From contig JACQZS010000341.1 in the NCBI GenBank assembly GCA_016213725.1, forward strand, positions 1-34,146: DNA of 34,146 nucleotides, read 5' to 3'. A program made the position numbers and the translations under genes. This document shows, piece after piece, positions 17,726 through 20,678 of the stretch (position 1 is the stretch's first letter; the number at the start of each line of letters is the position of its first letter). This stretch comes from Acidobacteriota bacterium. GTDB taxonomy: Bacteria; Acidobacteriota; Terriglobia; Bryobacterales; Bryobacteraceae. The notes below the pieces were generated by a model. It worked only from the letters and a program-made list of their open reading frames with translations, did no database searches and was not told the origin of the DNA.

Positions 17726-18655
17726 TCAGGCGCGGGAAGGCGTGGAGGGAGAGTCCGGACCGCCCGCGGAACGGGCCTCGCGCCCGGATGGAGGCGTGGG
17801 TACGGAGTCGAAGTGGAGCGGGTCCCGCAGGTTCTGCAACTCGCGGTAGTAGTAGAGCGCGGTGGGGCGGCGGTTGCGGAACTCGAGGCTCTTCAGGAAT
17901 TCAATCTCCTCGTCGGTGATGTTGGCGCTGAGGATGGGATCGCGCAGGAACTCCTCGAAGCCCGGCTCGATGAAGCGCGGCTGCTGCGGTTCGCGCTCCA
18001 CGAATTCGAAGCGCTTCAGGTGGCCGAGCGTGAGCCTGTGGTTGAGCGCGATCTCCATGCCGAAGGTCTCGAGGTCGATGTCCCAGGACTCGATCAGCGG
18101 CTCGAGGAACGCCACGCAGTTCTCCACCGTGACGTGAAACACATCCGTGTCGAGGAACTCGAGGATCCGCACGCGCATGTCCTGGTAACTGCGGCGGCTG
18201 AGACGGGCGATCATGCGGAGCCAGGATTCGCTCTGAAGTTCTTCGCTGGCCACGCCCTTGGCCACGTCGAGCAACTTCTGCGTGACCAGCCGCTCGATCT
18301 CGCCGAAGGTCTCTTTCTCGAAGATGTCGCGGACCAGGTTCCGGCGCTCCGGCACGCACTTGGCGAGCACCAAGCTGCGGAAGTCCTTGAAGAGCGGCTG
18401 GGGGGGATTGGAGATCTTCCGCTTCAGATCCTCGATGCGCTGGGCCTGTGCCAGCCGCGAGAGCTCCCCGGACGGCAGTTGGAGCACGGCCTCGAACTTG
18501 GTGTAGATGTCGCTCCGTTCCGGAGCGGGCGGCGTTTTCTTGCCCGCAAGTAGTTGGGAGACGTAGGACTCAGTGACTTCGGCGGCGACGGCAAGGTCGC
18601 GCTGATCCAGCGAGAGGGCCTTCAGCCGGTGGCGGACAACGAGCGCAAACTGCAT
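17726..18655 (-). CDS. Xre-type HTH regulator with long uncharacterised C-terminal region
   Basis: N-term RHRLKALSLDQRDLAVAAEVTESYVSQLLAGKKTPP is a Cro/CI-type HTH; C-term about 230 aa not recognised. Confidence 0.8.
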   Translation of the reverse strand: MQFALVVRHRLKALSLDQRDLAVAAEVTESYVSQLLAGKKTPPAPERSDIYTKFEAVLQLPSGELSRLAQAQRIEDLKRKISNPPQPLFKDFRSLVLAKCVPERRNLVRDIFEKETFGEIERLVTQKLLDVAKGVASEELQSESWLRMIARLSRRSYQDMRVRILEFLDTDVFHVTVENCVAFLEPLIESWDIDLETFGMEIALNHRLTLGHLKRFEFVEREPQQPRFIEPGFEEFLRDPILSANITDEEIEFLKSLEFRNRRPTALYYYRELQNLRDPLHFDSVPTPPSGREARSAGGPDSPSTPSRA

Positions 18656-18664
18656 AGAAAGTTT

Positions 18665-18745
18665 ACCGAATTTGATTAAGCTACCAGGTTCATTGTGACC
18701 AATCCTTGCTTGACAAGCAAATCTGATTCACCTAATATGGTTAAG
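18665..18745. promoter_or_regulatory. Divergent control region: perfect palindrome plus two 16-bp imperfect direct repeats
   Basis: TTGCTTG-A-CAAGCAA (18706-18720); ACCGAATTTGATTAAG (18665-18680) and ACCTAATATGGTTAAG (18730-18745). Confidence 0.65.
18710..18738 (+). promoter_or_regulatory. Near-consensus sigma70 promoter for the small-ORF cluster
   Basis: TTGACA (18710-18715), 17 bp spacer, TAATAT (18733-18738). Confidence 0.75.
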
Positions 18746-18837
18746 GAACAGAAACTCTTTCTCTTCTGCGGAACACCTGAGCTAAGTCATCTATCCGCCC
18801 CCCTCACTTAGCGATGCGCAGAACTCGGGAGGAAGTG

Positions 18838-19071
18838 ATGTTCTATCCAACGACAAAAGCGACGGGCAGGAGCTACACGGCGACCATCGCGTTGGCGAGT
18901 GTCGCGGTGGTGTTCATTCCGGCGTGCATTCTGCTCTCCGCGCCGGTAACGCCGGCGACCGCACGCGTGGCGGTGGCGGCCAGCGCCGGGTTTCTGACGA
19001 TGGCGTGGGGCAACTGGCGGCGGAACTCGCGGCTCACCATCCCGACGATCACAGCTCCGGGTGTGGAGTAA
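18838..19071 (+). CDS. Small membrane protein, two predicted TM segments, unknown function
   Basis: 77 aa MFYPTTKATGRSYTATIALASVAVVFIPACILLSAPVTPATARVAVAASAGFLTMAWGNW...; strong SD GGAGGAAGTGATG. Confidence 0.7.
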   Translation: MFYPTTKATGRSYTATIALASVAVVFIPACILLSAPVTPATARVAVAASAGFLTMAWGNWRRNSRLTIPTITAPGVE

Positions 19072-19080
19072 GCGCGGCGC

Positions 19081-19311
19081 ATGACGCAATTCACACTCAA
19101 ACTCACAAGCAAAGAAGTGGAACTGCTGGCGGGCTTGGCGGCGGATCAGCTTTTCCGGCGCGAGTTCATCGATCCGAAGATGCCGGGTTACCGGGCGGAC
19201 CTGGCGCACGGCAAGGTGCTGGTGGAGCGATTGAGGGCCCTGCTGGATCCTCGACAGGCCCTAAAGACAGAGCGTTTGTCCTCGAACAAGCGTCTGGGGG
19301 CGGCAAGATGA
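19081..19311 (+). CDS. Small protein of unknown function (76 aa)
   Basis: MTQFTLKLTSKEVELLAGLAADQLFRREFIDPKMPGYRADLAHGKVLVERLRALLDP...; co-directional, 9 bp after previous stop. Confidence 0.6.
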   Translation: MTQFTLKLTSKEVELLAGLAADQLFRREFIDPKMPGYRADLAHGKVLVERLRALLDPRQALKTERLSSNKRLGAAR

Positions 19312-19329
19312 ACGGAGAGCGAGGCGCCG

Positions 19330-19629
19330 ATGCCATTTGATCAGTTGTTCCCGCGAGCATTCACGGCGGCGTCGGTGCGAATGTATGCGCCGGCGCTGCC
19401 CGGGGTGTATGGGATTTCGAATGCGCGGGAGTGGCTCCAGATCGGATCGGCCGAGAATCTGCAGGAAGAGCTGCTGCGAATCCTGGTGGAAGGCGGAACT
19501 TCAATGCGCGGGCAGGCGCCGACCGGCTTCTCGTACGAGACCTGCGAGGTGGGCGCGCGGGAACCGCGGCGCAGGGCACTGGAGCTCGAATATGCACCGG
19601 GGCGAAACCGCGAGGCAGGCGGGCGATGA
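19330..19629 (+). CDS. Small protein with degenerate GIY-YIG-like N-terminus (99 aa)
   Basis: LPGVYGISNAREWLQIGSAENLQEELLRIL resembles UvrC/Cho-type GIY-YIG (PGVYx..YIGxAxNLxxRL) with substituted catalytic positions. Confidence 0.6.
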   Translation: MPFDQLFPRAFTAASVRMYAPALPGVYGISNAREWLQIGSAENLQEELLRILVEGGTSMRGQAPTGFSYETCEVGAREPRRRALELEYAPGRNREAGGR

Positions 19630-19973
19630 CGTATATCCTGAACGGCTTCTCGCAAGAAGGAGAATACCGCGTGTTCTCATTCGAGGGGATCGACTCAGAG
19701 CGCGTTCGAACGACGTTCCTGGTGCGCATTCACCTGGCGCTTTCGAGGCAGTACGGAATCCGGATCCAGGACCTGCCGCTGCTTTGCAAAGGGGTGCTGG
19801 AGCGCAGCGGCGAGGAGCCGGCCAGCCCGACCACCACCTTTACGGAACGCGAGATGGACGAGTATGCCAAAGTAGCCGCGGCGAGAGTCGCCGCGACACA
19901 GAGAACCGGGCCGCGCAAACCCGCAGGAGCCAACCTCGGAGCAGCCTGGCGCACACCTCCTCAGGGAGAGTGA
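19626..19973 (+). CDS. Small protein of unknown function (115 aa)
   Basis: MTYILNGFSQEGEYRVFSFEGIDSERVRTTFLVRIHLALSRQYGIRIQDLPLLCKGVLER...; ATGA overlap with preceding ORF. Confidence 0.65.
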   Translation: MTYILNGFSQEGEYRVFSFEGIDSERVRTTFLVRIHLALSRQYGIRIQDLPLLCKGVLERSGEEPASPTTTFTEREMDEYAKVAAARVAATQRTGPRKPAGANLGAAWRTPPQGE

Positions 19974-20185
19974 TGGCAGGGCTGGAGATGAGAGGAGACT
20001 CGACCCGGCAGATGGAAGAGATGACGACAGAGAACGGACCGATTCGCGAAGAACAATGGCGTGCCTGGGCGCACCTGGCACGGCGAGGCGCAGAAGAGCG
20101 GGAACGGCGGAGAAACCGCCGGGCGGGCATCGCTGCGGCAATGATGATGGCCGGACTGATTTCGTGTTACCTGGCGAACAGGTAA
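19973..20185 (+). CDS. Small protein with C-terminal TM segment (70 aa), unknown function
   Basis: MAGLEMRGDSTRQMEEMTTENGPIREEQWRAWAHLARRGAEERERRRNRRAGIAAAMMMAGLISCYLANR; TGATG overlap with preceding stop; SD GGGAGAG. Confidence 0.55.
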   Translation: MAGLEMRGDSTRQMEEMTTENGPIREEQWRAWAHLARRGAEERERRRNRRAGIAAAMMMAGLISCYLANR

Positions 20186-20242
20186 CGGAGCGGGCGGCCC
20201 AAGAGATTCGATAACGAGATTAGCGAAAAGAAAAGAGACAGC

Positions 20243-20524
20243 ATGACGAACATTTTTGTAGGGAACCTCAGCTTCCGGACGACGCAGGACGAGTTGCAGG
20301 AGGCATTCGCGAGCTTCGGCGCAGTGGAGCGCGTGAACATTGTCACGGACCGCGACAGCGGACAATCCCGGGGATTCGCGTTTGTGGAGATGACCGACCG
20401 GGCTGCCGCGCAAACGGCGATCGAGCGGATGCACGGCACGGAAATGCACGGGCGCACGCTGAACGTGAACGAAGCGCGGCCGAAGGAGCAGGGCGGCGGG
20501 GGGCGCGGTTTCAGCCGCCGGTAG
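20243..20524 (+). CDS. RRM-domain RNA-binding protein with glycine/arginine tail
   Basis: RNP2 IFVGNL and RNP1 RGFAFVEM; tail EQGGGGRGFSRR. Confidence 0.95.
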   Translation: MTNIFVGNLSFRTTQDELQEAFASFGAVERVNIVTDRDSGQSRGFAFVEMTDRAAAQTAIERMHGTEMHGRTLNVNEARPKEQGGGGRGFSRR

Positions 20525-20554
20525 TAACCCGCAACCAGTTCGGGATTGACAGAG

Positions 20555-20578
20555 TGGCGGCCTCTCCGGAGGCCGCCA
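20555..20578 (+). terminator. Strong hairpin terminator after the RRM gene
   Basis: TGGCGGCCTC-TCCG-GAGGCCGCCA, 10 bp perfect stem, followed by TATTCTTGTCT. Confidence 0.75.
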
Positions 20579-20678
20579 TATTCTTGTCTGCCGGGCTTTC
20601 GGCTGCGGGATCGCGCAGGCTGTCCGGGGCGGCCCGAGTCCGGCCGCCTGTTCTCCCGGGGCGGCGGCCCGGCGCTCA

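Follow-up and report, generated by a model that had tools for sequence, protein, structure and literature searches.

A candidate stress-type operon with an Xre regulator and a putative cis-acting leader RNA in Bryobacteraceae (Acidobacteriota)

Acidobacteriota are abundant in soil, and little is known of their stress regulation. The HrcA/CIRCE system combines a repressor with an inverted repeat in the control of groESL promoters. In the DdrO/IrrE system of Deinococcus, scattered radiation-desiccation stress genes are governed by an XRE-type repressor via a shared DNA motif (PMC5552922). As to RNA elements, the Chlorobi-RRM motif is listed in PMC2864571; its name marks it as a cis-regulatory candidate tied to RRM genes.

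The locus described here lies in a window (the whole stretch of DNA analysed) of 34,146 nucleotides, contig JACQZS010000341.1 of assembly GCA_016213725.1. The assembly comprises 6.05 Mb in 341 contigs; the genome is 89% complete, and groEL was matched in it only by a fragment located at the end of a contig. A first-pass annotation of the window had proposed a regulated accessory module of unknown function; the parts which proved most informative (two operator-like palindromes, a conserved leader RNA and a chaperonin context) were absent from it. From the conserved architecture set out below, we lean towards reading the locus as an XRE-repressed operon of stress or RNA-protection type, headed by a new candidate cis-acting leader RNA.

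The regulator, its palindromes and the divergent genes

The gene coordinates and the lengths of the five small ORFs in the first-pass annotation were correct. An Xre regulator of 309 aa is encoded on the minus strand (17726-18655) and faces a row of plus-strand genes: ORF1 (18838-19071), a membrane protein of 77 aa; ORF2 (19081-19311), 76 aa, in which DQLFRREFIDPKMPG is invariant in the comparison with relatives; ORF3 (19330-19629), 99 aa; ORF4 (19626-19973), 115 aa; ORF5 (19973-20185), 70 aa, with a C-terminal hydrophobic segment; and an RRM RNA-binding protein of 93 aa (20243-20524). Two of the reported overlaps between small ORFs are present, ORF3/ORF4 by ATGA at 19626-19629 and ORF4/ORF5 by TGATG, whereas ORF1/ORF2 and ORF2/ORF3 are 9 and 18 nt apart. 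The hairpin following the RRM gene has 11 pairs (20554-20579, plus strand) and is the probable operon end, but shuffled sequences give similar numbers, which makes this evidence weak. The window contains no tRNA, as had been noted of the neighbourhood, and no integrase or phage genes were read off the ORF list of the flanks.

Coding signatures, the lack of which had been named as evidence against the cassette, were found in all six divergent genes: in comparison with relatives, dN is lower than dS and changes at third codon positions are in excess, which identifies ORF1-ORF5 and the RRM gene, on comparative grounds, as real genes under purifying selection. ORF5 is the least widespread, with a single relative in a genus-mate (L004; 51% over 57 aa).

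The GIY-YIG-like motif noticed earlier in ORF3 (GVYG..WLYIG) is indeed present and is what this protein has in common with the GIY-YIG domain of UvrC. Overall similarity to UvrC is marginal (E 0.035), none of the seven members has a Pfam match, and no invariant Arg follows YIG in alignment A3, as read by eye, unlike the conserved Arg of UvrC. Assignment as a GIY-YIG nuclease is unsupported by these matches, and ORF3 is probably not a nuclease. ORF4 had no credible relative among solved structures. In two leader-associated proteins of relatives (L222:1174-1794 and L225:2016-2645), a paralogous ORF4-like domain follows a cold-shock-like N-terminal domain (CSD matches with E 1.6e-4 and 1e-3, both below the cut-off), and these fusions suggest that ORF4 may be a partner domain of RNA-binding proteins. 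Proteins at L230 and L249 resemble the fusions by eye. The RRM protein is clearly classified, with 80.9 bits against Pfam RRM_1 (E 6e-23; cut-off 20.7) and 110.1 against NCBIfam NF058537, Rbp_regulator (cut-off 100). It thus exceeds the model cut-off for the small bacterial RRM proteins, and differs from them in that the RRM gene here ends an Xre/leader operon, as it does in a minority of loci.

The N-terminus of Xre is a Cro/C1-type HTH, which places the protein in the XRE family: the Pfam HTH_3 match has an E of 3e-4, under that model's own cut-off, and the modelled HTH superposes on 434 Cro, P22 c2 and SinR (TMt about 0.75-0.8). The structure model was built from 52 sequences (mean pLDDT 78.7, pTM 0.60) and replaced a poor one built from 10 (pTM 0.37); it displays a canonical HTH and a conserved, mostly helical C-terminal region. 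For that region there was neither a Pfam match nor a PDB fold match passing E 0.001. The best weak match to Xre is DdrO of Deinococcus (fold E 0.018, profile E 0.036; neither significant), a similarity which we treat as a lead and not as a claim of membership.

Palindromes were scored as sites when they matched at least 8/10 positions of TTAAC-N8-GTTAA, for which the chance expectation is 0.06 sites per 260 bp. At least two such 18-bp palindromes stand between Xre and the operon at 54/59 loci, usually spaced 63-66 bp apart. In the window, O1 (TTTACCGAATTTGATTAA, 18662-18679; 8/10) lies beside the Xre start codon and has an equivalent in most Xre loci, while O2 (TTCACCTAATATGGTTAA, 18727-18744; 9/10) lies 65 bp from it and overlaps the -10 box of a sigma-70-type operon promoter, TTGACA-17-TAATAT (18710-18738, plus strand), whose TTGAC is conserved at the same place in most loci. 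Conserved palindromes are found at both the regulator's own and the divergent promoter, as is characteristic of XRE repressors. Because the palindromes are co-conserved with the Xre loci, we infer that Xre binds O1 and O2.

The cassette in related genomes

Neighbourhoods of most Xre, ORF2 and ORF4 loci were fetched, and their ORFs were clustered and annotated with profiles; the genomes are a sample, many of them fragmented, and related sequences are not independent. Of 200 genomes of the family, 54 have an Xre homologue, 59 have ORF2 and 115 have ORF4 or a paralogue of it. ORF2 was confined to this family (Bryobacteraceae) in a sample of 396 genomes from the phylum; Xre is also present in two genomes from a different family of the order.

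Divergent cassette genes lie within 6.5 kb at 53/59 Xre loci. They are drawn from 13 families, namely ORF1, c4 (about 225 aa, with an N-terminal hydrophobic segment), c18, c13, c3b, GroES, GroEL, ORF2, ORF3, ORF4, c15 (basic), a small Zn-ribbon-like protein and RRM, and their order is strongly kept (363 concordant vs 13 discordant pairs). Only GroES, GroEL and RRM pass Pfam cut-offs. Xre with its divergent cassette is a family-wide system. The neighbourhoods also answer the second condition that had been named as counting against the cassette, that homologues never accompany Xre: homologues of ORF3 and ORF4 recur in the same layout, shared with those of Xre and ORF2, so that this condition did not refute it either. 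As the first-pass annotation had proposed, the module is accessory in being patchy and regulated in being linked to Xre.

Several Xre cassettes include groES-groEL; the window and its genus-mates carry an ORF1-ORF4 version that is free of groESL. Since further GroEL genes exist elsewhere in the same genomes (e.g. G016 and G562), the chaperonin linked to Xre is an additional copy. The Xre-linked GroEL proteins of L019, L131, L132 and L149 have short acidic C-terminal tails (e.g. MICGVVEE) with no GGM repeat. In one genome a duplicate cassette is decaying (L020, G016:C1 about 4504000-4506000): its Xre copy, the second in that genome, is interrupted by a frameshift or stop, and it retains an ORF1-like and a truncated groEL sequence. 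In the genus-mate L004 (85-1188) a transposase-like ORF lies directly upstream of ORF2-ORF5, ORF1 is truncated and the fetched stretch has no Xre; the arrangement suggests that an insertion has damaged the cassette.

The leader RNA and its target genes

Downstream of the promoter, the predicted transcript would begin with a leader of about 75 nt (18741-18815, plus strand; 46 bits with our model R1) made up of two hairpins, P1 and P2, and a CUUAG element. P2 (18768-18798, plus strand; alignment A6, pair counts) exposes the loop CUAAG (18782-18786), complementary to CUUAG at 18807-18811 on the same strand. We delineated P1 and P2 by visual inspection of the sequences and went on to test them by counting pairs. 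In 34 sequences aligned without regard to structure, 81% of the cells were paired, compared to 27-36% for slid partners; 13/18 pairs had changed on both sides, and 0/500 shuffles reached the observed values. These 34 leaders had been selected with a pattern in which the loop core and CUUAG were obligatory, so that the conservation of those letters within this set is partly due to selection, while the hairpin covariation is independent of the pattern. Two-sided changes were found for 17/18 pairs in 53 sequences, and the picture was similar in a phylum-spanning set, both of these alignments being fitted to the model and leaning towards it. The compensatory base-pair changes exceed the controls, and by this comparative measure the leader is a structured RNA.

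In 96/107 model matches the leader retains both the CUAAG loop and, 20-25 nt downstream of it, a CUUAG, which suggests that the two pair as a pseudoknot. This pairing is weakly tested because the two elements are nearly invariant, the one compensated pair being CCAAG/CUUGG in L027. RNAalifold on a MAFFT alignment recovered only part of P2, and energy folding of single leaders was uninformative, as they fold no better than shuffles. No Rfam family matched the leader, riboswitches, thermometers, Chlorobi-RRM and Acido-1 included; a SNORD29 match (20.4 bits vs 48) was put down to chance. A scan of viral contigs for CTGANCTAAGTC-N-CTTAG gave over 120 matches, no more than a rough chance estimate, and was discarded. 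Among open-licence papers we found no description of the leader or the cassette.

With model R1, whose E-values are rough, the leader was detected in 79/200 family genomes, with as many as six or more sites in a single genome, and in 27/376 phylum genomes, the weakest near threshold. It goes with Xre (43/54 Xre genomes vs 36/146 others; Fisher 2e-12, counted by hand from the two genome lists and uncorrected for relatedness), but the two are separable, as about a quarter of the family genomes without Xre keep the leader. Away from Xre it also stands before cassette families, before YSC84 genes (L145, L223), ABM-like genes (L223, L221, L252, L253, L254, L256), a DUF2934 gene (L258) and the cold-shock-like/ORF4 fusion genes. 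In L220 (1134-1676), away from Xre, an Hsp20 gene follows a leader at a distance of 23 nt, a matching operator is present, and this gene is likely to be a trans target. In other Acidobacteriota families the leader mostly precedes an ABM-like protein of about 106 aa starting MFAR/MYAR (L252:1597 onward, L253, L254, L256). As the leader and cassette genes include groESL, Hsp20, YSC84, RRM and cold-shock-like proteins, the regulon looks like a stress-type one, a label which rests on a minority of members, most cassette proteins having no known relative.

One possible explanation for the leader is that it is bound, at CUUAG or CUAAG, by an RNA-binding protein of the regulon itself (the RRM protein or the ORF4 domain) in a feedback loop. 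Single-stranded motifs containing UAG are common RRM targets, and leaders precede RRM genes in the window and, standing alone, in another family (L257, L259), as well as the cold-shock-like/ORF4 fusions. However, the RRM gene is present in only 7/59 Xre operons, and an unlinked RRM-like sequence (a DNA match only) is also found in the window's genome; we regard this explanation as unlikely. Also unlikely, in our estimate, is a small-molecule riboswitch or RNA thermometer, for which a compact hairpin with a candidate pseudoknot near the start codon, and Hsp20 and groESL among the targets, would speak. In many loci (among them L124, L131, L120, L022 and L252, just 5' of the first ATG) a short CAACC-GAGGA-GGUUG-like hairpin holds the ribosome-binding site in its loop, but this hairpin is missing in the window. 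Further, the downstream genes share no common metabolite pathway, such strong sequence conservation is unusual for thermometers, and the Rfam search was negative. Lastly, the conserved segment could act as DNA, as further regulator sites or a cruciform, given that it abuts O2 and that inverted repeats can be protein sites; that it lies on the coding strand between the promoter and genes, also where operators are lacking (L237, L145), and shows compensatory changes across two hairpins makes this quite improbable.

Proposed regulation and comparison with known systems

Starting from the observed gene layout, palindromes, promoter sequence, leader covariation and target list, we propose that Xre binds the two 18-bp palindromes 65 bp apart and that the divergent operon would be shut off because O2 covers the -10 box; O1, beside the xre start codon, would make autoregulation possible. 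Release of Xre may then follow a stress signal, which the conserved C-terminal region perhaps senses, and allow the synthesis of one mRNA that would start near position 18745 and reach the end of the hairpin at 20579. At its 5' end the P1-P2-CUUAG leader, whose fold is supported by covariation, may tune the translation or stability of the message. The products would protect proteins and RNA: in the window the small proteins and RRM, and in sister units GroES-GroEL, which the window copy lacks, Hsp20 and the cold-shock-like/ORF4 fusions. The function, which the first-pass annotation had left blank, is hereby narrowed to a putative stress-type regulon by the chaperonin and RNA-binding context.

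A rival reading takes up the annotation's mention of phage switches and toxin-antitoxin modules and sees a domesticated phage switch or a toxin-antitoxin or defence island, with Xre as immunity repressor or antitoxin and the small ORFs as toxin or anti-host proteins. It is suggested by the divergent Xre layout, the patchy distribution, the small overlapping ORFs and the transposase-like ORF in L004, but we reject it as very improbable, since no toxin, antitoxin or defence model was matched over its cut-off (the best was a weak match of the Xre HTH to the Y4mF antitoxin model, 23.8 bits vs 71.65), the small ORFs have no defence match, Xre no plasmid match and ORF4 no phage match, and the partners are chaperonin, Hsp20 and RRM.

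To return to an XRE-repressed operon with a leader RNA, a wider claim would be that such leaders form a new class of pseudoknotted cis-regulatory RNA across the phylum and, jointly with the family-specific XRE repressor, coordinate in Acidobacteriota a regulon for the protection of proteins and RNA, including protein families with no known relative (ORF1-ORF4, c3b, c4, c13, c15 and c18); we give this an even chance. For the Acidobacteriota, the locus and its relatives offer a concrete candidate regulon with its repressor, in which operator and leader RNA are defined and the target genes make up a short list; they also offer a candidate new leader-RNA class and link several unnamed small-protein families to chaperonins and RNA-binding proteins.

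Of the described systems, HrcA/CIRCE is similar in its repressor and inverted repeat at groESL promoters, whereas here the repressor is an XRE protein, TTAAC-N8-GTTAA takes the place of CIRCE, and small genes and a leader RNA are added. The Chlorobi-RRM motif, compared by name, is likewise a candidate cis-regulatory RNA with RRM genes; it belongs to a different phylum, did not match our leader in Rfam, and in our set other gene classes dominate. The DdrO/IrrE regulon (PMC5552922) has in common with the Xre system an XRE-type repressor, scattered stress genes and a shared DNA motif, DdrO being also the best, non-significant match to Xre; the two differ in the size of the repressor (129 aa for DdrO, about 290-310 aa for Xre), in operator and in gene set, and the leader RNA is an additional element of the Xre system.
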